64,000 nucleotides of DNA from Desulfatitalea sp. BRH_c12 (GTDB lineage: Bacteria > Desulfobacterota > Desulfobacteria > Desulfobacterales > Desulfosarcinaceae), in NCBI GenBank assembly GCA_000961655.1, contig LADR01000008.1:430001-494000 (forward strand), read 5' to 3'. The translations under genes and the position numbers were made by a program. Positions 26,641-62,063 of this stretch are shown here, piece by piece. The notes below the pieces were generated by a model that was not told the DNA's origin, searched no databases, and saw nothing but the letters and a program-made list of their open reading frames with translations. How positions within the stretch are numbered: the first letter of the stretch is position 1; each line of letters begins with the position of its first letter.

Positions 26641-26899
26641 GGTTTGTCTCCGGATATATTTTTTGCACGATTGAAATCGCGCGCATGGGTAGTGGTGCTG
26701 CTGGATATTTAAAAATATGGATAAGCACACTGCGCGAAGAATCAAATACGGGTTCCGTGGATGATTTGGTTTTCTTGACAAGCTATCGGTTTGCAATAGT
26801 TTTGATTTTGAGGTGTGCCCGAGACGAGGGCTTGCCAGGGTTTGCCCGCCAATGGGACGCAATGACAGGCCAAGCCGGGTCCGGAAAGAAAAAAGCAAA

Positions 26900-28846
26900 A
26901 TGTCTCCAAAAAAATCCCCCTCGTATATAGCCGACCAGGATGCGCTTTTGCGCCACATCGTGCAAGGGACTGCTTCGGAGACAGGGGAACGGTTCTTTCG
27001 TGCACTGGTTAAGAATTTCAGCCAGGCCCTGGGCACGCACGCCGCCTGGGTTACCGAATACCTGCCCCGCACGCGGCGGTTGCGGGCATTGGCCTTCTGG
27101 CTGGGCAACGGATTCATCGAAGACTATGAGTATGCTGTCGCCGGCACGCCGTGTGAACCCGCCATCCAAAACAAAAGTTGTCTGCACATTGCCGAAAACG
27201 TGGTTGAGCTCTTTCCGGAGGATGCCGATCTGCGCAAATTAGGCGCGGCCAGTTATATGGGTTGCCCGCTTTTAGACTCGGAAAACACCGTTTTGGGCAA
27301 TCTGGCGGTCTTGGATCTCAAACCCATGCCCGACTCTGCCCGCAACCTGGCCTTGTTCAGGATCTTCGCCGCACGGGCCACGGCTGAATTGCTGCGCGTG
27401 CAGGGCGAAGCCGATGTTCGGGAGCGCGAGGAAAAGATCAAGGGGTTGTTCAATGGGGTCATGGACGCGATTGTCGAACTGGACAGCGATCTTGCAATTT
27501 GTGTCCTGAATCCCGCGGCCGAGCGCCTGCTGGATGCACCGGCTTCGCAAATCGTTGGCAAGACCTTCACCACCTATCTTTCCTCTAAAGAGATGCATCG
27601 TTTCTGTCGCTTGGTGCAGGACCTGACCAGTCGTCCCCGATACGAGCAAAAAATATGGATCCCGGAAGGGTTGACGGTGCGCACCGCCAATGGCAAAACG
27701 CTGCCCACCGAAGCCACTGTGACCTTGTTCGAAGCCAATGGGGAGTGCCGTTATGCGCTGATTCTCAGAGATATCAACGAGCGTTTCGAGTCGCGCAGGC
27801 TGATTGCATCCTTGCGTCAGCAGACCCTCTATTTGCGCGATGAAATCCAGGCACTGACCGAATTTGGCGCGATCATCGGCAACAGTCCAGCTTTTCGCAA
27901 AACCCTGCAACTCGCATCCGAAGTGGCGCCTACCGATGCCACCGTACTGCTCTGCGGTGACACCGGGACCGGAAAGGAGTTGATGGCCAGGACGATCCAC
28001 GCGACCGGCCGTCGCAAAGACCGACCCATGATCACGGTGAACTGCGCGGCCATTCCGGAGTCCTTGATGGAAAGCGAGTTTTTCGGGCATGAGAAAGGCG
28101 CTTTTACGGGTGCAACCCGGCGCAGGGAAGGGCGCTTCGCACTGGCGGACGGCGGAACGATTTTTCTGGATGAAGTCAGTGAACTGAACAAGGAGATGCA
28201 GGCCAAGTTGCTGCGCGTGCTTCAGGAGGGGGAATTCTCAGCGGTGGGCAGTTCCACAACGCGTAAAGTCGATGTGCGGGTGATTGCCGCGACCAATCGG
28301 GATCTGTCGCACGCCGTGCGGGACGGTCGCTTTCGGACGGATTTGTATTTCCGGCTGAGTGTTTTTCCGATCACTCTTCCGCCGTTGCGGGCGCGCGGCG
28401 ACGATATCGGATTGCTGGCGTCGCACCTGGTCCGAAAGATTGCCGGCCGCATGGGACGCACCATTGACCCCCTCACGCCCGATCTGATCGCGCGTTTGAA
28501 AGCGTATGCATGGCCCGGCAATGTGCGCGAACTCCAGAATGTCATCGAACGCGGGGTGATCACTGCCCGCTACGGGCGGCTGAATTTGGACCACGCCCTG
28601 CCGGCCGAAGATGCGCTGGCCGATGTATCGGGCCAGACCGCGCAGGAGAGCACTGCCGTACGGACCATCCACGAATTCCAGCAGATGGAAAAAAAGAACT
28701 TGCTGTTGGCGATGCAAACCGCACAATGGCGCATTTCCGGCAAAAATGGCGCCGCCCACTTGCTGGGGGTGCCGGCGTCGACCCTGCAGTCGAAGCTCAA
28801 AACCCTGGGCATCAAAAGACCGGCGCCGCCGGCGGTTAAAGTTTGA
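26900..28846 (+). CDS. Sigma-54-dependent activator with GAF and PAS sensor domains
   Basis: A 648-residue enhancer-binding protein, started at the ATG at 26900. A GAF domain occupies about residues 15-165 and a PAS domain about 180-295. The AAA+ domain covers about 322-560, with Walker A GDTGTGKE (353-360), the sigma-54-contacting loop GAFTGA (400-405) and Walker B GGTIFLDE (418-425). The C-terminal helix-turn-helix is NGAAHLLGVPASTLQSKLKT. The architecture is close to FhlA/NorR-type regulators that sense a small molecule or redox state. The good sigma-54 promoter and dyad just downstream make the OsmC gene its likely target. Confidence 0.93.
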   Translation: MSPKKSPSYIADQDALLRHIVQGTASETGERFFRALVKNFSQALGTHAAWVTEYLPRTRRLRALAFWLGNGFIEDYEYAVAGTPCEPAIQNKSCLHIAENVVELFPEDADLRKLGAASYMGCPLLDSENTVLGNLAVLDLKPMPDSARNLALFRIFAARATAELLRVQGEADVREREEKIKGLFNGVMDAIVELDSDLAICVLNPAAERLLDAPASQIVGKTFTTYLSSKEMHRFCRLVQDLTSRPRYEQKIWIPEGLTVRTANGKTLPTEATVTLFEANGECRYALILRDINERFESRRLIASLRQQTLYLRDEIQALTEFGAIIGNSPAFRKTLQLASEVAPTDATVLLCGDTGTGKELMARTIHATGRRKDRPMITVNCAAIPESLMESEFFGHEKGAFTGATRRREGRFALADGGTIFLDEVSELNKEMQAKLLRVLQEGEFSAVGSSTTRKVDVRVIAATNRDLSHAVRDGRFRTDLYFRLSVFPITLPPLRARGDDIGLLASHLVRKIAGRMGRTIDPLTPDLIARLKAYAWPGNVRELQNVIERGVITARYGRLNLDHALPAEDALADVSGQTAQESTAVRTIHEFQQMEKKNLLLAMQTAQWRISGKNGAAHLLGVPASTLQSKLKTLGIKRPAPPAVKV

Positions 28847-46652: not shown

Positions 46653-47867
46653 ATGGATTTCACTATGCGGACAACCTTTTCGAAGTTGATTCCCACGCTT
46701 CTGATGATCTGTGTGTTGGGCGTTATTGGCGGGGCCCTGGCGGCCTGCTCGAAAAAACCGTCCGACCGGGAGAAGCGGCGCAATTCCGTGCCGGTCGAAG
46801 TGGCACCCATTGAACGCGGGGAAATCGAACTGCGACGCACTTTCAGCGGCACCGTCGAAGCGGCTGCCAAATTCGTTGTGGCCCCTAAAGTGGATGGCCG
46901 CATCGTCCGTCTGGCCGTCGATTTATCGGATGACGTCCTGCGCGGCCAGGTGGTGGCCGAGCTCGACAATGCCGAGTACGTTCAAGCCGTGTCGCAGTCC
47001 GAAGCCGATCTTGCGGTAGCCCGCGCCAATTTGTCCCAGGCCAACAGCGCGCTGGAAATCGCCACGCGTGAGCTGTCGCGCGTCCGGACCTTGCTCAAGC
47101 GCGGGGTGGCCTCGGAAGCCCAATACGATACCTCGCGGGCCGAAGAGCTGGCCCGCAAAGCGCAGTTGGAGGTCGCCGAAGCCCAAGTCACCCGGGCGCA
47201 GGCATCGCTGGAAACCGCACGCATCCGACTGGGCTACACCCGCATCACGGCAGATTGGACCGGCGGCGATGCACACCGCATCGTGGGCGAAAGATTCGTC
47301 GATGAGGGCGAGACCGTATCTGCCAATGCGCCGTTGCTGTCGATCGTCGAACTCGATCCGGTCATCGGCGTGATTTTCGTCACCGAAAAGGATTACACCT
47401 GGCTGCAGCCCGACCGCAAGGTGCGCCTGCTCACGGACGCTTGGCCCGACACACCCTTTGAAGGCAAGATCGCGCGCATCGCGCCGATCTTTCGCCAGAC
47501 CACGCGTCAGGCCCGCGTCGAACTGATTGCCGCCAACCCCGATCACCGGCTCAAACCCGGCATGTTCATCCGCGCTGCCGTGGTCCTGGACCGGGTCGCG
47601 GATGCCGTGATCGTTCCCGAGCAGGCCATCACGCGCCGCAATGAGCGCACTGGGGTGTTCGTGGTCGCCGCCGACAGTCAGAGCGTGACATGGCGCGAAG
47701 TCCGCACCGGCATCCGCGACGGCGACCGCGTGCAGGTGCACGGCGACGATCTGACCGGCCGCGTGGTCATTCTGGGTCAGCAGTTGTTGGATAACGGGTC
47801 GCAGATAACGATTCCGGACCAGGAAAGCCGGATCTCTTCCACCCCCGAAGAGGTGGCTGCCCAATGA
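46653..47867 (+). CDS. RND efflux adaptor lipoprotein
   Basis: A 404-residue periplasmic adaptor of the AcrA/MexA type. The signal peptide ends in lipobox LAAC (about Cys32). The lipoyl halves are [20 protein letters not shown] and [20 protein letters not shown]; between them is an alpha-hairpin rich in Ala/Glu/Arg. Beta-barrel and membrane-proximal domains follow ([41 protein letters not shown]). Its stop overlaps the pump gene by 4 bp (ATGA), so the two are translationally coupled. It joins the RND pump at 47864 to the outer-membrane factor at 51119. Confidence 0.93.
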
Positions 47868-50800
47868 ATCTGCCGGGTTTCAGTGTTCGTCGACCGATAT
47901 TCACCACCATGGTCACCCTGATTGTGGTGATCTTGGGGGCCGTGTCTCTCAGTCGCTTGCAGATCGATATGCTGCCCAGCATTGAACTGCCGACCTTGAC
48001 CATCAATACCGAGTATGAAGGCGCCAGTCCCGAGGTCATGGAGCGGCTGATCACCCGCATTATCGAAGAGATCGTGGCCACGGTGCCGGGCGTCGAGCAG
48101 ATCACCTCGCAGTCGTCCGAAGGCAACAGTTCCGTTCGGGTCAGTTTTGTCTGGGGGGCCTCCATCGATACGGCCGCTTTGGACGTGCAGTCCAAAATCG
48201 AAGACGAAATTAACGAACTGCCCGACGATATCGTGCGTCCGCGCATCCGTAAGTTCGACATTGCCAGCTTCCCGGTGGTGCTGCTGGGCATTTCGAGCAT
48301 ACTGTCGCCGCTCGAGCTCACCGAACTGATCGAAAACCAGATCCGCTACCGGTTTTCGCGCGTGCCGGGCGTGGCCCAGGTAGACTTGTGGGGCGGATTC
48401 GACCGCGAGATCCGCATTGAACTCGACCCCGACCGGGTCAAGGCCCTGGGCCTGCCGCTCGACCGCGTGATCCAGGCCATCCGCGATGCCAATCTCGACC
48501 TGCCGGCCGGCCGCATCGAGCAGGGCCGCTACGAGGTCACCTTGCGGGCGCCGGCTGAATTTCAGAATCTGGATCAGATCCGCGACATGGTCATCCTCAA
48601 CCGCGACGGCGCGGTGGCCACCCTGGGCCAGGTCGCCGACGTCAAGGACACCTACCAGAAACTGACCCGCATCATCCGGGTCAATGGCGAGCGCGGCCTG
48701 CGGGTGGCCATCCGCAAACAGGCCGAGGCCAACACGGTCGAGGTGTCCAAGGCGGTGCTGGCCGAAATCGCGTCGGCAAACGCGGCTTTTCCCCAGGTGC
48801 GCATCGTGCCGGTGCTCAACCAGGGAAATTTTATCGAACGCTCCATCGCCAATGTCGCGCAGTCCGTCATGTACGGCGGCTTGCTGGCGGTGCTTGTGCT
48901 GCTCTTTTTTCTGCGCAACCTGCGCAGCACCCTGGTCATTTCGCTGGCGATCCCCATATCCCTGATCGCCACCTTCGCCCTGATCTTCTTCGGCGGCTTT
49001 ACCCTGAACCTCATGACGCTGGGGGGGCTGGCTCTCGGGGTCGGCATGATGGTGGACAGCTCGATCGTCGTGCTGGAAAATATTTTCCGCCGGCGCGACG
49101 AGCTGCACGAACCGGCGGCAGGCGCATCGGTCGAAGGCGCGCGCGAAGTCGCGCCGGCCATTGTCGCCAGTACCATCACCACCCTGGTCATTTTTTTGCC
49201 TTTGGTGTTTGTGCGTGGGGTCACCGGCATCCTGTTCAAAGAGCTGGCCTACGTCATCATCTTCTCGCTGGTGTGTTCATTGATGGTCTCCCTTAGCCTG
49301 GTGCCGATGCTGGCCTCGCACCTCGTGACCCAAAAACGCCGGCGCTTGCCAAGCTGGGTGCCGGTCGATCGCATTTTTGGGCTTTCGGAAACGGCGCTCA
49401 ACCGTCTCACCGACCGCTATCAGAACCTGCTGCGCAAGGCGCTCGCGCACCGGCCGACCACCATTGTGATCGCTTTGGCGCTCCTGGGGGCCAGCCTCTT
49501 GCTGGTGCCGCTGATCGGCACCGAGTTTATGCCGCCAAGCGACGAAGGCGAAGTGCGCGTGAGCGGTGAGATGGAGGTGGGCACCCGGCTTGAGCTCGTC
49601 GACCGGCAGACCCGTAAGATGGAGGCCATTGTCTATGCGGCCGTGCCGGAGACCGTCTCCTCGGTGGTCACCGTCGGCGCGTCCGGTCATCGGGCCAATG
49701 AAGCTGCCACCGGGGAAATCAGTCTGTCGCTGGTGCCCTCGTCACAGCGGCGCCGGTCCAACGTGCAGATCGCCGAGGACCTGCGCCAGAAGCTGGCCGG
49801 CGTGATCCCAGGCATGGAAATACGCACGCGCGCACCGCAGGGTCAATTCCTGCTCGACCGGCTGCTGGGCGGCGAGGAAGGCCTGACCGTTGAAATTCGC
49901 GGCTTCGATCTGGATACGTTGGATCTGCTGGCCAGCGAAACGGCCGAAGCCATCCAGGGGGTGGTCGGCATAACCGATATCCGCGTCAGCCGCAAATCGG
50001 GAACACCCCAGCAAGCCGTCCGGGTCGACCGCAACAAGATCGCCGACATGGGTCTGAGCGTCCGCGACGTCACTCAGGCCATCGAAACCGCAGTGGCCGG
50101 ATCGACGGCCGGAGAGTACCGCAGTGCAGGCAACTCCTACCGCATCCTGGTGCAACTGGCCGACGTGCAGAAGCGCTCGCTCGAGGAAATTTTAGACCTG
50201 ACCCTGGCCACGGCCTCTGGCGACCACGTCTCCTTGCGCAACCTGGTGGCGACCGAAGCCGGTTTCGGGCCGACCGTGATCGACCGCAAGGACCAGCAGC
50301 GCCTGATCACGGTCAACGCCAACGTGGCCGGCCGCGACATGGGTTCGGTGGCCGGGGATGTCCAGGACCGCCTGGCGACCATCGCACGGCCCATCGGCTA
50401 TGACCTGATCGTGGCCGGCAATTACGAAGAACAGCAAAAATCCTTCGACGAACTGGTCGTCTCGCTCGTCCTGGCACTGGTGCTCGTTTACATGGTGCTG
50501 GCCTGCCAGTACGAATCGCTGCGCGACCCCCTGGTGGTGATGCTCTCCGTGCCGCTGGCCATCGTCGGAGTGCTGATCACGCTGTTTCTGACCGGCACCA
50601 CGTTCAACGTGCAGTCGTACATCGGCTGCATCATGCTGGGCGGCATCGTGGTCAACAACGCGATTCTGCTGGTTGACCAAGCCGGGCAACTCAACCGCGG
50701 CGGCATGCATGTGCGCGAAGCCGCCATCGAAGCCGGGCGCAGACGTCTGCGGCCCATTCTGATGACCACCTCGACCACGATTCTCGGGCTGATCCCCCTG

Positions 50801-50947
50801 GCGCTGGGCATTGGCGAAGGCGCCGACGCTCAGGCCCCGCTGGCGCGCGCGGTCATCGGCGGCCTGGCAGGGTCGACAATGATTACCCTGGTACTCATCC
50901 CGACCGTTTACACGCTGTTTCACCCGGATCCCAAAGGGGATCGTTGA
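47864..50947 (+). CDS. RND efflux pump, HAE1-like
   Basis: A 1027-residue inner-membrane proton-driven pump. It has the twelve-helix layout with two large periplasmic loops (about residues 35-330 and 555-860), beginning [20 protein letters not shown]. The helix-4 segment reads [20 protein letters not shown]: only one Asp of the AcrB Asp-Asp proton-relay pair is present, the second being Ser, as in many AcrB relatives outside enterobacteria. The C-terminal helices include [19 protein letters not shown] and [15 protein letters not shown]. Substrates may include antibiotics, solvents or fatty acids; none can be assigned. Confidence 0.95.
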
Positions 50948-51118
50948 ATAGTTGCATCGTTGAACATAATCGTTGCATTGTTGAACATATAGATTCGCCC
51001 CCCGGTCAAAATGATATGTTGGATGATGTGCGACTTTGTACAGAACCATCGTATGATGAAACGCGAGCGGCAAATTCCAAGTTAACGAATCGACCTTTGA
51101 ACGACTCAACGAAATTAA

Positions 51119-52738
51119 ATGATGATTAATAAGCAAATTCGTTTGATCCTGGCAACCTGTGTCCTTTCAACGATCGCCGCCTGCGCGCCCGTGGACCGCT
51201 GGGGCGCGGTTCAGCCCGACTACGAAGCGCTGCTGCGCCGTACCGGGACGCCACCGATCGAGATCCCGGAAGAGGTCCTCCCCAGCATGGCACAGCCGGT
51301 GCCCCTGCCGGTGCCGGCTGAGGGTCAGGCGCTGCCGCTGTCCGTCGAAGAAGCCATCATGATCTCACTGCAATACAACCGCGATCTGCATGTCCGGCAG
51401 CTCAATCCCGTGATCGCCGGCACCTTCGAACAAATCGCGCGCGGCGTTTTTGACCCCGAAGTGTTCGCCGAGATGCAGTACTATCGGGAAAGAGCCAGCG
51501 AGACTTCGCGGGCCACCGGCGAACAGTTCGGCACCCAGGGCAGCGACACGTCCGTTGTGGCCGGGGTCCGGCAAAGCCTGCCGACGGGCACCGAGCTCGA
51601 AGCGACCGTCGAACATGAACGCAATCTCTCTAACCGCACTCCCGACCAGCAGACCGCGCGCGTGGGGCTCAGCGTCACCCAATCCCTGCTGCGCGGCTTC
51701 GGCCCGGCCGTGAACATGATCGATGTGCGCCAAGCCGCCCTCGACCATAGCGCCAGCCTTTACGAACTGCGCGGATATATCGAGGCCCTGGTCGCCGACA
51801 CCGAGATCGCTTACTGGAACTATGTGCTGGCCGAACAGGAAATCGCCATTTTCGAAAACGCCGCCAAAGTCGCCAGCCAACAGCGCGATGAAATCGAACA
51901 GCGCATCGCGGTCGGCGTGCTGCCCAGAATCGAAGCCGCCGCCTCGCGCGCCGAAGTCGCCCTGCGCGAGCAGGCCCTGATCGATGCGCGCAGCCAGCTC
52001 GAATCCCAACGCCTGCGCCTCGTGCGTCTGCTCGGTCCGGGGGCCGCGGCAGGGCTCGACCTGCAAGTGCGCCCCACCACCGGCCCGGCAATCGACGCCC
52101 AACCGATCACCGACCTGCCCGAGCGTCTGCAACTGGCCGAACAGGCGCGACCCGACATCAATGAAGCCCGCCTGCGCCTGCAGCAAGACCGCCTCGAAGT
52201 GCTGGTCACCAAAAACGGATTGCTGCCCCGGCTGGAGCTGTTCGCGGGCCTCGGACGCACTGGCTACGCCGATACTTTTTCCCAGTCCGTCAAAGAACTC
52301 GACGGCGACACTTACGATTTTACAGCCGGCCTGCGCTTCAGCCATTTCCTCGGCAACCGCAGCGCCGAAGCCCGCCATGTCGCCGCCCGGGCCACCCGGC
52401 GCCAATCCGCCGAAGCGGTGGCCAATCTCCTGCAGATCGTCCGCCTCGATGTGCACCTGGCCGCCACCGAAGTCGAGCGCACCCGTCAGCAGATCAGCGC
52501 TACCGCCGCGACCCGCGCCCTTCAGGAGCAAACCCTTGTCGCCGAAAAAGAACGTTTCGATGTCGGCGCCAGCACATCCCTGCTGGTCGCCCAAGCCCAA
52601 CGCGACCTGCTCACCATCCAAATCGCCGAAGTCGAAGCCGTCATCAACTACCGCACCGCGCTCGTCCAACTCTACCTCAGCGAAGGCAGCCTGCTCGAAC
52701 GGCGCGGGATCCGACTGGGCGATCCGCAGCGGCCGTAA
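51119..52738 (+). CDS. Outer-membrane efflux channel (TolC/OprM family)
   Basis: A 539-residue outer-membrane factor with lipobox IAAC (Cys22). It carries the internally duplicated OEP domain: LSVEEAIMISLQYNRDLHVRQL begins the first half and LPERLQLAEQARPDINEARLRLQQD the second. Long Ala/Glu/Arg-rich helices follow each half, and the end is LVQLYLSEGSLLERRGI. A 171-bp spacer with AT-rich direct repeats separates it from the pump gene. It should complete the tripartite RND system. It may also serve the MacAB-like ABC pump at 20-24 kb, which lacks its own channel. Confidence 0.93.
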   Translation: MMINKQIRLILATCVLSTIAACAPVDRWGAVQPDYEALLRRTGTPPIEIPEEVLPSMAQPVPLPVPAEGQALPLSVEEAIMISLQYNRDLHVRQLNPVIAGTFEQIARGVFDPEVFAEMQYYRERASETSRATGEQFGTQGSDTSVVAGVRQSLPTGTELEATVEHERNLSNRTPDQQTARVGLSVTQSLLRGFGPAVNMIDVRQAALDHSASLYELRGYIEALVADTEIAYWNYVLAEQEIAIFENAAKVASQQRDEIEQRIAVGVLPRIEAAASRAEVALREQALIDARSQLESQRLRLVRLLGPGAAAGLDLQVRPTTGPAIDAQPITDLPERLQLAEQARPDINEARLRLQQDRLEVLVTKNGLLPRLELFAGLGRTGYADTFSQSVKELDGDTYDFTAGLRFSHFLGNRSAEARHVAARATRRQSAEAVANLLQIVRLDVHLAATEVERTRQQISATAATRALQEQTLVAEKERFDVGASTSLLVAQAQRDLLTIQIAEVEAVINYRTALVQLYLSEGSLLERRGIRLGDPQRP

Positions 52739-54793: not shown

Positions 54794-55999
54794 ATGCCTG
54801 ATTCCAAGCCCGCATGCAGTTGCACTTCGGCCAGTTCAGCACCCGCCACCCAACGCCCCGGGATGGACATGCTGCCCATTTACCGGCCGCCGGCCCAAGC
54901 GGAGCCGTGTTGCGGGCCGCCGGCCGGACCGCCAAGCGACCCTTTCGAGCAGCCGGGGTATACACTGTGCCCCTTTGTGCGGGATTTTATCCCCACACCA
55001 TCCGGCAATGTGCCTCTCATCCAAACCGCTCTGGCATTCCGGGACCGGCTCGGGACGATTGGCGTTCGCCTGGGGCTGGGCCGCAGCAATTACAAGGTGG
55101 CGCCTGGGCTTTATGCCGTCGGCCACCCGGATGATAGCGCTGAAGTACTGGTAACGGCCAACTACAAACTCTCTTTCGATCATCTGCGGCAATCGCTGCA
55201 AGACATCGATGCCTGGCTCCTGGTGCTGGACACGCGGGGCATCAATGTGTGGTGCGCCGCCGGCAAGGGCACCTTCGGCACCGAGGAACTGGTGCGGCGC
55301 ATCCGCCACACAGGATTATCCCAGGTGGTGAGCCATCGGCGGCTGATTTTGCCGCAGTTGGGAGCCACTGGCGTTTCGGCCCTTAAGGTGAAAAAAGCGT
55401 GCGGCTTCGAAGTGGTGTGGGGGCCGGTCAGGGCCACCGATCTGAAGCGTTTTCTCTTCGCGGGTCGGTCGTGCGATGCCAGCATGCGGCGCGTCACGTT
55501 TACCCTCGTCGAGCGTCTGGTGCTGGTGCCGGTGGAGATAACGCTTCTGGGCAAGCATCTGATAGGCGCACTGCTGTTGATCGCAGTTCTTTCGGGTATC
55601 GGCCCGCACGTCTTTTCCCTGGCTGCGGCATGGCAGCGCGGGATCTGGGCCACAGCCGCCGTTGTGGCCGGCATCGCGGCCGGATGCCTTCTCGTGCCCG
55701 CCCTCTTGCCCTGGCTGCCGGCCCGGTCCTTTGCCTTGAAAGGGCTCTTGGCCGGTTCAGCGGTGGCTGCAGTGCTGACCATTGGCCAATGGAAGGCGCC
55801 CATGCTCACGGCGGGCGCAATGCTGTCGCTGGGTATGATGACCGTGGCCGTAAGCTCCTTTCTGGCGATGAATTTCACCGGGTCAACACCCTTTACCTCG
55901 CCTTCGGGCGTAGAGAAAGAGATGCGCCGTTACATCCCGCTGCAGGCCGGCGCTATCTTTGTGGCCCTCGTCTTATGGATCGCCAGCGCGTTCTTCTAA
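54794..55999 (+). CDS. hgcA: Mercury methylation corrinoid protein HgcA
   Basis: A 401-residue membrane protein that passes a methyl group from a corrinoid cofactor to Hg(II), giving methylmercury, together with HgcB. The corrinoid-binding domain (about residues 50-235) carries the family-defining cap-helix motif N151-V-W-C154-A-A-G-K158. Cys154 is the predicted Co ligand. Also typical are NYKLSFDHLRQSL and LPQLGATGVSA. The C-terminal part has about five transmembrane helices (about 240-400). A Cys-rich N-terminus (CSC, CC at 39-40) precedes it. TTGGAGACG lies before the ATG. This is the standard HgcA length and layout; the assignment follows Parks-type hgcAB family knowledge. No mer genes or ArsR regulator are nearby. 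Confidence 0.96.
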   Translation: MPDSKPACSCTSASSAPATQRPGMDMLPIYRPPAQAEPCCGPPAGPPSDPFEQPGYTLCPFVRDFIPTPSGNVPLIQTALAFRDRLGTIGVRLGLGRSNYKVAPGLYAVGHPDDSAEVLVTANYKLSFDHLRQSLQDIDAWLLVLDTRGINVWCAAGKGTFGTEELVRRIRHTGLSQVVSHRRLILPQLGATGVSALKVKKACGFEVVWGPVRATDLKRFLFAGRSCDASMRRVTFTLVERLVLVPVEITLLGKHLIGALLLIAVLSGIGPHVFSLAAAWQRGIWATAAVVAGIAAGCLLVPALLPWLPARSFALKGLLAGSAVAAVLTIGQWKAPMLTAGAMLSLGMMTVAVSSFLAMNFTGSTPFTSPSGVEKEMRRYIPLQAGAIFVALVLWIASAFF

Positions 56000-56035
56000 T
56001 CAGCTCTTTGGATCGTACCGTATGGGAATCTATTC

Positions 56036-56323
56036 ATGAAGACATTGCGATATCTTGATAACGTTGTCACCCTGACCCTCAATGCGCAGAAATGCATCGG
56101 CTGCGGGGCCTGCACGCAGGTATGCCCCCACACGGTGCTGGCGATGCAAAGCCGCAAGGCCTATATCCTTGACATGAATGCCTGCATGGAGTGCGGCGCC
56201 TGCGCAAATAACTGCCCCACCGAGGCCCTCACCGTGACCCCGGGCGTCGGATGCGCCAGCTACATCATCCAATCCTGGATCGTCGGCAAGGAGAAGGCTA
56301 CCTGTGGGCCGGGGTGTTGTTAA
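56036..56323 (+). CDS. hgcB: Mercury methylation ferredoxin HgcB
   Basis: A 95-residue ferredoxin that should reduce the HgcA corrinoid and may deliver Hg(II). It has two [4Fe-4S] motifs, C20-C23-C26-C30P and C50-C53-C56-C60P. Beyond the clusters are the family-specific Cys73 (PGVGCAS) and the C-terminal pair Cys94-Cys95 (CGPGCC), proposed to bind mercury. These extra Cys separate HgcB from ordinary dicluster ferredoxins. The gene starts 36 bp after hgcA and is followed by an intrinsic terminator, so hgcAB form a two-gene transcript end. All residues expected for activity are present. Confidence 0.96.
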   Translation: MKTLRYLDNVVTLTLNAQKCIGCGACTQVCPHTVLAMQSRKAYILDMNACMECGACANNCPTEALTVTPGVGCASYIIQSWIVGKEKATCGPGCC

Positions 56324-56507: not shown

Positions 56508-56538
56508 AGCCGCAGGATCCATCTCCTGTGGCTTTTTT
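56508..56538 (+). terminator. Intrinsic terminator after hgcAB, just upstream of the ABC-F gene
   Basis: AGCCGCAGGA (56508-56517) pairs with TCCTGTGGCT (56524-56533) with one G-T pair, followed by six T. It ends 22 bp before the GTG start of the ABC-F gene, so it could end the hgcAB transcript or work as an attenuator for the ABC-F gene. Confidence 0.8.
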
Positions 56539-59449: not shown

Positions 59450-59579
59450 TGGTTATCCACTATGGTCAAGTAAGATAGGGGTATGGGATGACGGAAAAAA
59501 ACCAAAGCCCCGGATCACCTCCACCGTGCCAATCTCGGATACACTTCGCCAATTGTCACTGAAGCGAACTGGATAAACA
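59450..59579 (+). repeat. Family B element flanked by a 10-bp direct repeat
   Basis: The ends TGGTTATCCA (59450-59459) and TGGATAAACA (59570-59579) are inverted. The direct repeat TATTCCGATT occurs at 59440-59449 and 59582-59591, two bases or less from the ends. The interior resembles 58622-58715 (AAAGCCCCGG shared), with a segment CGGATCACCTCCACCGTGCC as in the other copies. Confidence 0.75.
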
Positions 59580-59621
59580 AATATTCCGATTATGACCCAT
59601 CATGCGCAGGAATTCAGCATC

Positions 59622-60167
59622 ATGAGGAAAAGTATGGACATTATTCTTCAAAATGAAGTTTTAGATCGGATTCTGGAAAAGCATAGATCGAAATTCGGAA
59701 AAGATTACCCCGCATATAAGAATCATTGCTACAGGGTTCTGAATTTAGCTGTCGTGTACTCTGACAAGTCATCCGTATCGCTTGAGAAGATAGCGATTGC
59801 ATCCGCTTTTCATGATTTGGCAATATGGGTGCATCAAACCTTTGATTATATCGGTCCGTCTGTCAGTATGGCACGCGCGTACCTAGAACAAGTGGGCAAA
59901 TTTTTTTGGTCAGATGAAATTTCTCAAATGATCAGCGAGCATCATAAGGTGTCGCGTTTCGATGGTTTTCCGCTGGCGGAGGCCTTTCGCAAGGCGGATT
60001 GGATTGACGTTTCGATTGGGGCGGTATGCTTTGGGCTGGATAGACAGGACATTAAAGCCTTGTATAAGGCTTTCCCGGCACACCGATTTCATTTTCGTCT
60101 TATTCAGTTATCGGCAAGCAATATTATAAAAAATCCGCTTAACCCATTACCAATGTTCAAGTGGTAA
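59622..60167 (+). CDS. HD-domain protein
   Basis: A 181-residue soluble protein, started at 59622 (MRKSMDIIL; CAGGAA upstream). An alternative ATG at 59592 directly abuts the repeat upstream. The metal-binding pattern of the HD superfamily is visible: His in YKNHCYRVLNLAVVYS, His-Asp in IASAFHDLAIW, His in ISEHHKVSRF and Asp in AFRKADWIDVS. Such proteins hydrolyse phosphate esters, often of nucleotides; the substrate here is unknown. Base composition is more AT-rich than most neighbours. That could reflect transfer, but the sample is small. Confidence 0.8.
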   Translation: MRKSMDIILQNEVLDRILEKHRSKFGKDYPAYKNHCYRVLNLAVVYSDKSSVSLEKIAIASAFHDLAIWVHQTFDYIGPSVSMARAYLEQVGKFFWSDEISQMISEHHKVSRFDGFPLAEAFRKADWIDVSIGAVCFGLDRQDIKALYKAFPAHRFHFRLIQLSASNIIKNPLNPLPMFKW

Positions 60168-60284
60168 GCATAACAGGGAATACCGCTGCTCGGCGCCGCT
60201 TGACCCCATACCTGACATCATGGCACCAGCCACCATTGGAAATGAAAAGTTTGACTTTTTACGATTTCAAAGTAAAAACCCAAC

Positions 60285-60313
60285 TTGACAAGTGACCACT
60301 GGTCATTTATAAA
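60285..60313 (+). promoter_or_regulatory. Promoter with TetR operator in its spacer
   Basis: TTGACA (60285-60290), 17 bp and TATAAA (60308-60313). The palindrome TGACC-ACT-GGTCA (60293-60305) fills the spacer, an ideal place for repression. The same half-sites recur at 61028-61040. Confidence 0.75.
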
Positions 60314-60347
60314 GTTCACACAAGGGTGAGAAAATAAAGGATGTATC

Positions 60348-61010
60348 ATGGCCGGCAACAGAGCAGTGACCAACGAGCAGAAGGCGAGTCGGCAGCAGCA
60401 TATTATCGATGCCGCATCGTTCTTGTTCGAAAAATCGGATTTTAAACAGATCACCATGTCGGAAATCGCTCAACATGCCGGGTTGGCAAAAGGAACCCTG
60501 TTTCTGTATTTCAAAACAAAAGAAGCTGTATTCCTATCCCTCGCACAGCAGCAGATCGAGCAGTGGTTTATCCGCCTTGACAAAAAACTTGAACTCCTTG
60601 TCCAGTCTGGAACCGGGACAAGTACAAAAAAGATGGTAGATCTTCTTATATCCTCGCTGGACAATGATGTTTTAATCAGACTTTTGGTGATCCTTGACGA
60701 CACATTGGAACAGAACATAGAATATGAAAGAGAAATTGCATTTAAACTGTTTTTAAAAGATAGAATTCTCCGGTCCGGGAACCTGATTGAACAAATCCTG
60801 CCCGGCTTGGAAAAAGAGGATGGTGCAAAGTTGTTTCACCTTTCTTTTATGTGTCTCGTGGGGGCATACAAAGTTTGCAACCCTTCACGCGCCATGCGGG
60901 CAGTGATCGAACAGCCTGGACTAGAAATGTTCAACCGGAATTTTAAAGAAACACTTCACGAGATGATCACCTACCTTATGTGGGGATTTCGAACCTCTAA
61001 ATTGGCCTAA
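60348..61010 (+). CDS. TetR-family transcriptional regulator
   Basis: A 220-residue repressor with an AAAGGATG ribosome-binding site. The DNA-binding domain covers about residues 12-60 (QQHIIDAASFLFEKSDFKQI, MSEIAQHAGLAKGTLFLYF, KTKEAVFL). The C-terminal domain resembles the TetR_C group with helical ligand pockets. The palindromes at 60293-60305 and 61023-61045 share TGACC...GGTCA, so the protein probably represses both itself and the SDR gene downstream. The ligand is unknown, perhaps a substrate of that enzyme. Confidence 0.9.
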   Translation: MAGNRAVTNEQKASRQQHIIDAASFLFEKSDFKQITMSEIAQHAGLAKGTLFLYFKTKEAVFLSLAQQQIEQWFIRLDKKLELLVQSGTGTSTKKMVDLLISSLDNDVLIRLLVILDDTLEQNIEYEREIAFKLFLKDRILRSGNLIEQILPGLEKEDGAKLFHLSFMCLVGAYKVCNPSRAMRAVIEQPGLEMFNRNFKETLHEMITYLMWGFRTSKLA

Positions 61011-61022
61011 AAAATTTAACCG

Positions 61023-61045
61023 TTAAATGACCTTTGGTCATTTAA
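61023..61045 (+). promoter_or_regulatory. TetR-type operator upstream of the SDR gene
   Basis: TTAAATGACC (61023-61032) and its exact complement (61036-61045) with a 3-base centre. It lies 16 bp before the SDR start codon and shares the TGACC/GGTCA half-sites of the tetR promoter. Confidence 0.7.
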
Positions 61046-61061
61046 AAACAAAGGAGCACTC

Positions 61062-61880
61062 ATGGGAAAAACAGTCATGATCACAGGAACATCTACAGGA
61101 ATTGGCAATGCCGCGGCCCTATTATTCCACCGAAAGGGGTGGAATGTGGCAGCAACGATCCGATCCATCGAAAAAAAACCGAAAGAATTTATTGGGCTCG
61201 AGAATTTGAAATGCTTCACCATGGACGTGACGGACAAAAAAGAGATTGAACAGGCAGTCCGGGATATCATAAACGAATTCGGCACCATCGATACCCTGGT
61301 CAACAATGCCGGTGTTTATTCAACTGGCCCCCTGGAAGCTATTTCCGATTGCGAGATCCGGCACATTTTTGAAGTCAATGTTCAAGGTACCATCAATGTC
61401 ACCAAAGTACTCATTCCCTACTTACGGAGGCAAAAAAAAGGAACAATTATCAATGTGTCTTCGATTGCCGGCAAAGTAACCTTCCCTTTTCAGTCCCTCT
61501 ATCATGGATCCAAATGGGCCATCGAAGGGTTCAGCCAAGGCCTTGCCCATGAGCTTAAGGAATTCGGTATCCGGGTTAAAACCGTTGCACCCGGTATGGT
61601 AAAAACCCATTTTTACGACCATGTTTTCACTATTCCAGAAAACGGCAATACGGATGCGTACAAAAAAAGCTTTACACGTTGGCACGCTTACCTGATGGGA
61701 AATTTCGAAAAAGGATACGGTCCGGAAGAATCGGCAAAGACCATATACAAAGCGGCAACAGACAAGCATGCGAAATTGACATATGCAGCTGGTCTGGACA
61801 CGAAAATGGTTTTTTTCCTAAAGCAGATCATGCCCCACTGCCTTTTCAATAGCATTGTACGCAGAAGTGTCGGGATTTGA
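61062..61880 (+). CDS. Short-chain dehydrogenase/reductase
   Basis: A 272-residue NAD(P)-dependent oxidoreductase with AAAGGAG upstream. The cofactor site is TGTSTGIGN, then NNAGVYSTGP, and the catalytic residues are Ser in INVSSIAG and Tyr-x-x-x-Lys in YHGSKWAIEG. The sequence is of the classical SDR type often annotated as oxidoreductase or 3-oxoacyl reductase. It follows the tetR gene by 51 bp with a shared operator, so the pair is a self-contained inducible unit. The substrate is unknown. Confidence 0.9.
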   Translation: MGKTVMITGTSTGIGNAAALLFHRKGWNVAATIRSIEKKPKEFIGLENLKCFTMDVTDKKEIEQAVRDIINEFGTIDTLVNNAGVYSTGPLEAISDCEIRHIFEVNVQGTINVTKVLIPYLRRQKKGTIINVSSIAGKVTFPFQSLYHGSKWAIEGFSQGLAHELKEFGIRVKTVAPGMVKTHFYDHVFTIPENGNTDAYKKSFTRWHAYLMGNFEKGYGPEESAKTIYKAATDKHAKLTYAAGLDTKMVFFLKQIMPHCLFNSIVRRSVGI

Positions 61881-62063
61881 TCTTTTACACGGGGCCCACG
61901 GTTTACGGGCATGATAAATTCAACCCTTTGCTCAGCTGATTTATAGGTTTTTTTGCATGACACGCCGATATAGAATGTCCTATTCCTCCCCCGCTGTGTA
62001 GATGCAGGGCGACCCCACTCTTGCAAAAAACACTAGTAAAGAAAGGGATTTGCTTTTCAGGGG

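Follow-up and report, generated by a model that had tools for sequence, protein, structure and literature searches.

Introduction

The closest described counterparts of the locus reported here are the HgcA and HgcB proteins of the Pseudodesulfovibrio mercurii ND132 type (NCBIfam models NF040863 and NF040864), encoded by adjacent genes, in which HgcA carries the cap-helix motif NVWCAAGK and a C-terminal membrane domain, and HgcB carries two CxxCxxCxxxCP motifs, Cys73 and the pair Cys94-Cys95. Cys93 of HgcA and C73, C94 and C95 of HgcB are described as crucial in the available portion of a paper that reports mutagenesis (PMC11588087). Selenocysteine (Sec) forms of the two proteins, HgcA (CU) and HgcB (GVGU), are already known and are listed, with Haft and Gwadz 2023 as the source for them, in a table of selenoproteins (PMC13188914). 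For MerB, excerpts of two papers give Cys96, Asp99 and Cys159 as the catalytic residues (PMC8261052, PMC4525700), and SaoL is entered in the former table as a MerB-like selenoprotein with one Sec, in a CU motif (PMC13188914). Our literature search, which covered parts of PMC13188914, PMC9312934, PMC8318568 and PMC2398784 as well as PMC12013277 and PMC5029168, brought up this one-Sec protein and Sec-containing mercury-transport proteins and no two-Sec MerB, which may be described in Haft and Gwadz 2023 or Haft and Tolstoy 2025. Here we analyzed a stretch of 64,000 nucleotides, referred to as the window, from Desulfatitalea sp. BRH_c12 (contig LADR01000008.1, positions 430,001 to 494,000), which contains an hgcAB pair, together with the rest of the host genome (6.0 Mb, 98.45% complete), in which a MerB-family gene with two in-frame UGA codons lies on another contig, C74. 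We consider it highly probable that a functional hgcAB pair and a di-Sec protein of the MerB fold are encoded in this one genome.

The hgcAB pair of the window

A preliminary description, made from the letters of the window, had proposed a complete hgcAB pair, with NVWCAAGK at residues 151 to 158 and about five C-terminal helices in HgcA, and two CxxCxxCxxxCP motifs, Cys73 and a C-terminal Cys-Cys in HgcB. All of these features were recovered from motif positions, cysteine positions and hydropathy (Table 1), and the profile searches suggested in that description placed both proteins over curated equivalog cut-offs: HgcA reached 443.2 bits against NF040863 (HgcA_corrinoid, cut-off 275, residues 73-400) and HgcB 123.5 bits against NF040864 (HgcB_ferredoxin, cut-off 99). 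The genes are adjacent and co-directional, 36 bases apart. Five candidate membrane helices of HgcA were given by hydropathy peaks at residues 256-274, 287-305, 313-331, 341-359 and 383-401, with further peaks at 234-252 and at 251-269, the latter overlapping the first of the five. Besides the cysteines of its cluster motifs, HgcB contains Cys73, Cys90, Cys94 and Cys95, three of which (C73, C94 and C95) bear the same numbers as the mutagenised residues in the available text of PMC11588087; by its motif, Cys154 of the window HgcA would be the counterpart of Cys93 in the studied protein. The window HgcA differs from the ND132-type protein in a longer N-terminal part with PCCG.

Table 1. Coordinates of the hgcAB pair, the downstream hairpin (window positions) and the MerB-family gene (contig C74).
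Feature	Position	Strand	Basis
hgcA, corrinoid membrane protein, 401 aa	54794..55999	+	ORF; NF040863; tree with HgcA
HgcA Cys39-Cys40, PCCG motif in N-terminal extension	54908..54913	+	cysteine positions
HgcA cap-helix motif NVWCAAGK, residues 151-158	55244..55267	+	motif position
HgcA C-terminal membrane domain, five candidate helices	55559..55996	+	hydropathy only
hgcB, dicluster ferredoxin, 95 aa	56036..56323	+	ORF; NF040864
HgcB first CxxCxxCxxxCP (residue 20)	56093..56128	+	motif
HgcB second CxxCxxCxxxCP (residue 50)	56183..56218	+	motif
HgcB Cys73 codon, GVGC motif (Cys form)	56252..56254	+	cysteine positions
HgcB C-terminal Cys94-Cys95	56315..56320	+	cysteine positions
Terminator-like hairpin and T run, between hgcB and likely ABC-F start	56508..56533	+	consensus match only
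MerB-family gene, two in-frame UGA at catalytic positions	C74 about 95091-95828	-	PF03243, read-through

Pfam named the window HgcA as CdhD only (46.1 bits), with Fer4-type domains in HgcB, and an HgcAB-like fusion-type paralogue is present in the family, as might be expected if the pair encoded an HgcA-like corrinoid protein, or one like those of carbon monoxide dehydrogenase/acetyl-CoA synthase (CODH/ACS), without mercury methylation activity. A phylogenetic tree had been set beforehand as the test that could refute the HgcA assignment. With 31 HgcA rows (the window's and 30 chosen from relatives' loci) and 18 corrinoid iron-sulfur proteins (CFeSP), the two sets fell on opposite sides of one branch with support of 100/99, the window protein standing with HgcA. 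There it belonged to a six-row group (99/98) with the proteins of G008, G009, G029, SURF_4 and a metagenome-assembled genome (MAG) labelled Desulfosudis oleivorans. Within the genus, its best relatives share 66% identity with it. It scored 68.5 bits against a PRK04165-type CFeSP model, below the cut-off of 306, as compared with 606.3 bits for the host's own CFeSP gamma subunit. The latter is part of a CODH/ACS cluster on the window's contig, about 440 kb off, in which alpha/beta (1097.5 bits), the CODH catalytic subunit (595.9 bits) and delta (658.6 bits) were also over their cut-offs, and a methyltransferase-like gene was below its own. Against the HgcAB-like fusion model, the window HgcA scored 203.1 bits, below the cut-off of 285. 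Profile score and tree rule out a CFeSP, and with NVWCAAGK intact and HgcB adjacent, a corrinoid protein devoid of methylation activity is extremely improbable. The pair is genuine and, taken alone, ordinary for the host group; from its presence, the organism is predicted to methylate mercury. In G029, the fusion-type paralogue (contig C235) has NVWCAAGM in place of NVWCAAGK; this genome encodes a true HgcA as well, on a different contig, and the stretch examined around that gene yielded no HgcB.

We read 92 loci, including three duplicates, with TGA as a residue. HgcA was found in 91 of them, with P-C-[C/U]-G in the N-terminal part in 39, and the second cysteine of this motif was UGA in 14 of the 39. 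HgcB, identified by motif in 84 loci, had GVGC in 55 and GVGU in 22 (77 together) and another motif in 7. These are the positions of the known Sec forms, and the window has Cys at both. In the seven loci L039, L055, L057, L060, L062, L078 and L079, C-G-C replaced GVG[C/U] at the Cys73 region of HgcB, and the HgcA of the same loci had C-U-G in its N-terminal part. In the HgcB of L069, UGA takes the place of one cluster cysteine in the first CxxCxxCxxxCP (C-S-G-U), which is either an error or an Fe-S ligand encoded as Sec. In the HgcA of L034, a UGA was seen 38 residues before the cap-helix motif, away from the known Sec positions, and the gene appears split into two open reading frames (ORFs).

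A MerB-family gene with two UGA codons in the same genome

The preliminary description had noted no mer genes near hgcAB, which held for merA and merB, the mer genes covered by our search: the only MerB-family match in the genome is on C74, and no merA was over its cut-off. This match (PF03243, C74:95232-95591, minus strand, 49.1 bits, cut-off 27) contains two internal TGA codons. When read through, the gene encodes 236 aa, with U-G-F-D and F-A-U-G-R-M-N-L-F, and the score rises to 65.8 bits (gathering cut-off 27). The predicted fold was confident throughout and was that of MerB. The best structural matches were MerB2 (5c17) and MerB (3f0o), with 11-18% identity to solved MerB chains, and phmmer aligned both UGA positions with cysteines of MerB2 5c17 (E 0.011). 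Positions 96 and 159 are both occupied, in each case by UGA, and the two Hg-ligand positions are 65 residues apart (62-75 in relatives). As compared with MerB, the C74 protein shares the predicted fold, the ligand spacing and Asp at position 99, whereas both of its Hg ligands are UGA-encoded. SaoL is likewise MerB-like and a selenoprotein, but has a single Sec, in the second catalytic column, where the C74 protein has UGA in both columns.

The Sec machinery search comprised tRNA-Sec and SelB, and both were found in the host (tRNA-Sec at C75:1046-1139, 72.4 bits, gathering 47; SelB at C89:50789-52681, 379.5 bits, cut-off 242). Folding energies of the hairpins after the two UGAs were -12.5 and -13.2 kcal/mol (48 nt), and by stability the 45-nt segments after them ranked in the top 4% and 2% within the gene. 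Both UGAs are very probably read as Sec, and the sequence and the modelled structure provide strong evidence for a putative two-Sec protein of the MerB fold. The evidence that this protein would act on methylmercury is weaker.

Recurrence of the UGA codons across the order

A PF03243 search of 389 genomes drawn from the order yielded 63 matches in 55 genomes, with two TGA in 50, one TGA in 4, none in 8 and a TAG in 1. We read 57 of the 63 genes, leaving out those of G023, G152, G266, G321 and G375 and one of G171's. Among the 58 aligned rows, in which the G003 gene appears twice, the catalytic columns were U/U in 48, C/C in 8 and C/U in one (the second gene of G009), and one fragment had U at the second column. 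In every two-UGA gene read (47 of 47), both UGAs fell at the catalytic columns. Open frames were cut at further in-frame UGAs, which occurred in at most five rows per column and outside the stretch used. In a conservation alignment of 36 rows (31 di-UGA and 5 Cys forms), the invariant columns were L48, P70, C92 (UGA in the Sec forms), C114 and C157 (UGA), and the C114 column is presumably equivalent to MerB Cys117. The sequence was conserved past the UGAs to near the C-terminus.

Two stop codons within one gene of a draft genome could point to a pseudogene or to sequencing errors, leaving a genome that only makes methylmercury, and two fragments, a TAG-containing one of MerB in G023 and a further one in G082, suggest decay in the family. 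We ruled out a pseudogene because the UGAs recur at the catalytic columns across genomes; the conservation past them, the confident fold and the Sec machinery also argue for an intact selenoprotein gene, and we regard decay or error as very improbable.

The di-UGA proteins formed subgroups A (25 rows, ligand gap 65-66, including the host's), B (7 rows, gap 62-63) and C (15 rows, gap 75), a single origin of which was left unsupported by a tree with long branches. UGA-MerB genes were spread over 20 families. Since the host protein grouped with that of G178, from another family (100/100), and apart from those of its genus mates G003, G008 and G009, the host copy seems to have been acquired separately from theirs. 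The second MerB-family gene of G009 is SaoL (165.2 bits, cut-off 140), with its UGA in the second catalytic column; it lies (C6:30781-31158) about 7 kb from a CFeSP gamma gene (C6:38331-38708), and the di-UGA gene of this genome is on another contig.

Co-occurrence with hgcA

HgcA was matched at E <= 1e-30 in 174 of the 389 genomes, of which 162 also exceeded the cut-off; the remaining matches may represent pieces of the gene or HgcAB-like paralogues. It was present in 33 of the 47 UGA-MerB genomes, as compared with 141 of the other 342 (201 without), an odds ratio of 3.4 (p 2.5e-4) uncorrected for kinship, completeness or genome size. Where a genome had only other MerB-family matches, HgcA was found in 2 of 8. 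By subgroup, counting the read genes only, HgcA was present in 20 of 26 genomes with A (odds ratio 4.5, p 8e-4, uncorrected for kinship), 4 of 6 with B and 10 of 15 with C, neither of the latter two being significant alone. We take these data as moderate evidence that UGA-MerB tends to accompany hgcAB.

Of 30 genomes in the family, 12 had a protein above the NF040863 cut-off. In the genus, full hgcA occurred in 4 of 11 genomes; hgcAB and UGA-MerB were found together in 4 and were both absent from 6, and G004 had an hgcA piece cut off at a contig end and no MerB. An rpoB tree of the genus, drawn without G002 and G005 (no rpoB found), placed G007, which has neither gene, in one group (96/92) with the four genomes that carry both.

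Genomic surroundings of the two loci

Upstream of hgcAB are a GAF-domain gene and a short-chain dehydrogenase (SDR) gene, and downstream, after the terminator-like hairpin, an ABC-F ATPase gene, whose profile match starts at residue 26 of the longest ORF. The consensus scan gave 14 such terminator sites in the window, as compared with 7.2 expected. A resistance-nodulation-division (RND) efflux set at 46653-52738 (+), 2 kb upstream of hgcA, comprises an AcrB-family permease, a TolC-like outer membrane protein and, by eye, a preceding membrane-fusion-like protein. The GAF, SDR, ABC-F, RND and TolC genes were rejected as conserved operon partners, as none was common to the hgcAB loci of relatives, whose flanks were compared over up to 6-10 kb per side, often less; weak SDR, ABC-F, RND or TetR matches (23-33%) in L031-L036, L049 and L076 were interpreted as paralogues matched by chance. 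The GAF gene (87 and 88%) and the ABC-F gene (92 and 95%) were on different contigs in G001 and G006, which lack hgcA, and the GAF gene of G003 (90%) was on a contig other than that of its hgcAB. In the window, hgcA and hgcB seem to form a module of two genes that stands on its own.

An ArsR-type regulator was directly upstream of hgcAB at 41 of 93 loci and was not found at 44, the window included, with 8 loci incomplete; three of the 93 duplicate others and L126 is a paralogue's locus. One paper describes 112 genomes with a putative transcriptional regulator right upstream of the pair and cites an ArsR-like regulator for Desulfovibrio and Pseudodesulfovibrio (PMC7438021).

Elsewhere in the window, no Rfam family was over its gathering score and no tRNA was found. 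At 26813-28846 (+), the PADLOC model of an RtcR/PspF-like CARF-AAA-HTH regulator matched with 352 bits over residues 333-668 only. The G+C content drops from 0.52-0.66 to 0.43-0.45 at 59500-62000, where HD-domain, TetR and short-chain dehydrogenase-like genes are located. Near the C74 gene are gltX (545.5 bits), fragments that look transposase-like by eye, and a gene of the LysR type. The best model for the latter was a selenium-metabolism LysR, with a score under the cut-off (121 against 250 bits). Besides MerB pieces, two families recurred as neighbours at UGA-MerB loci, in 7 and 5 loci.

Discussion

The two loci could act on mercury in opposite directions. The two 4Fe-4S clusters of HgcB would reduce the HgcA-bound corrinoid beneath Cys154. 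This corrinoid would then be methylated (S-adenosylmethionine does so in the studied enzyme), and its methyl group would move to Hg(II), perhaps delivered by Cys94-95 and Cys73 of HgcB together with the two adjacent N-terminal cysteines of HgcA. In the MerB-fold protein, the UGA-encoded residues at the positions of MerB Cys96 and Cys159 would hold R-Hg+ between two selenolates, and the aspartate three residues past the first Sec may protonate the Hg-C bond.

Several observations weigh against this interpretation. The presence of hgcAB does not guarantee measurable methylation, and the window pair lacks an ArsR-type regulator of the kind found beside many other pairs. Fourteen of the 47 UGA-MerB genomes had no HgcA match. 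Because the carriers and G007 form one rpoB group, joint presence within the genus can be explained by one gain and one loss, which weakens the genus co-distribution as striking evidence; the grouping of the host protein with that of G178, apart from its genus mates, counts in the other direction. The hairpin shift across the family was modest, with median percentiles of 0.23 and 0.27 over 48 rows, one gene counted twice (Kolmogorov-Smirnov p 8e-10 and 6e-5, the rows not being independent). The best MerA score in the host was 325.5 bits (cut-off 454), and in the genus MerA was over the cut-off in G003 only (508.8 bits); therefore, Hg(II) released by a lyase would need another exit. The C74 protein scored 43.8 bits against SaoL (NF040728, cut-off 140), and the MerB equivalogs NF009710 and NF033555 were unmatched at E 0.1; of three di-UGA relatives, two reached 37.9-58.3 bits against these equivalogs (cut-offs 193 and 200) and one was unmatched at E 1e-5. 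Because PF03243 was passed and the MerB equivalog cut-offs were missed, the C74 protein is of the MerB family and fold, yet is not a curated MerB.

An alternative explanation is that a selenoprotein of the MerB fold acts on another organometal or organoselenium compound, its overlap with hgcAB reflecting kinship or large anaerobic genomes. In line with this, SaoL, the sole NCBIfam model matched by the host protein at E 0.1, is named an 'organometallic lyase', all four di-UGA proteins scanned missed the MerB equivalogs, Glu replaces Asp at position 99 in 24 of the 25 subgroup A members, and the moderate, uncorrected association with hgcA and the lack of a MerA over cut-off would also be accommodated. 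However, the invariant Cys/Sec columns are the two mercury-binding positions and one further cysteine, the host protein retains the Asp (U-G-F-D), and its best structural matches are MerB2 and MerB. We think a substrate other than methylmercury doubtful, though far from negligible, and prefer the hypothesis that the host combines hgcAB with a MerB-fold protein that may cleave methylmercury.

The window hgcAB adds one more likely methylator to a methylator-rich group; the UGA-bearing MerB-like gene is the more important result, as merB surveys on annotated proteins could miss such genes. In the parts of the literature available, none of the genomes encoding only MerB had HgcAB in a 2021 survey (PMC8261052), and a 2022 paper describes three MAGs (Nitrospirae, Chloroflexi) with both hgcAB and merB and Geobacter bemidjiensis Bem as the only strain verified for both Hg methylation and methylmercury degradation (PMC9948709). 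We tentatively propose, with confidence just short of even, that mercury-methylating Desulfobacterota may commonly carry a lyase that is Sec-bearing at both Hg-binding positions and missed by standard gene calling, which truncates it at UGA. Alongside Sec-containing HgcA and HgcB, such a lyase would bring selenium into both halves of a methylmercury cycle within one cell, and breakdown by methylators apparently lacking merB would be explained. Should methylmercury prove to be cleaved by the Sec protein, genomes capable of both reactions would be far more common than is now assumed and estimates of net methylmercury production would need revising, a question directly testable in cultured Desulfobacterota.
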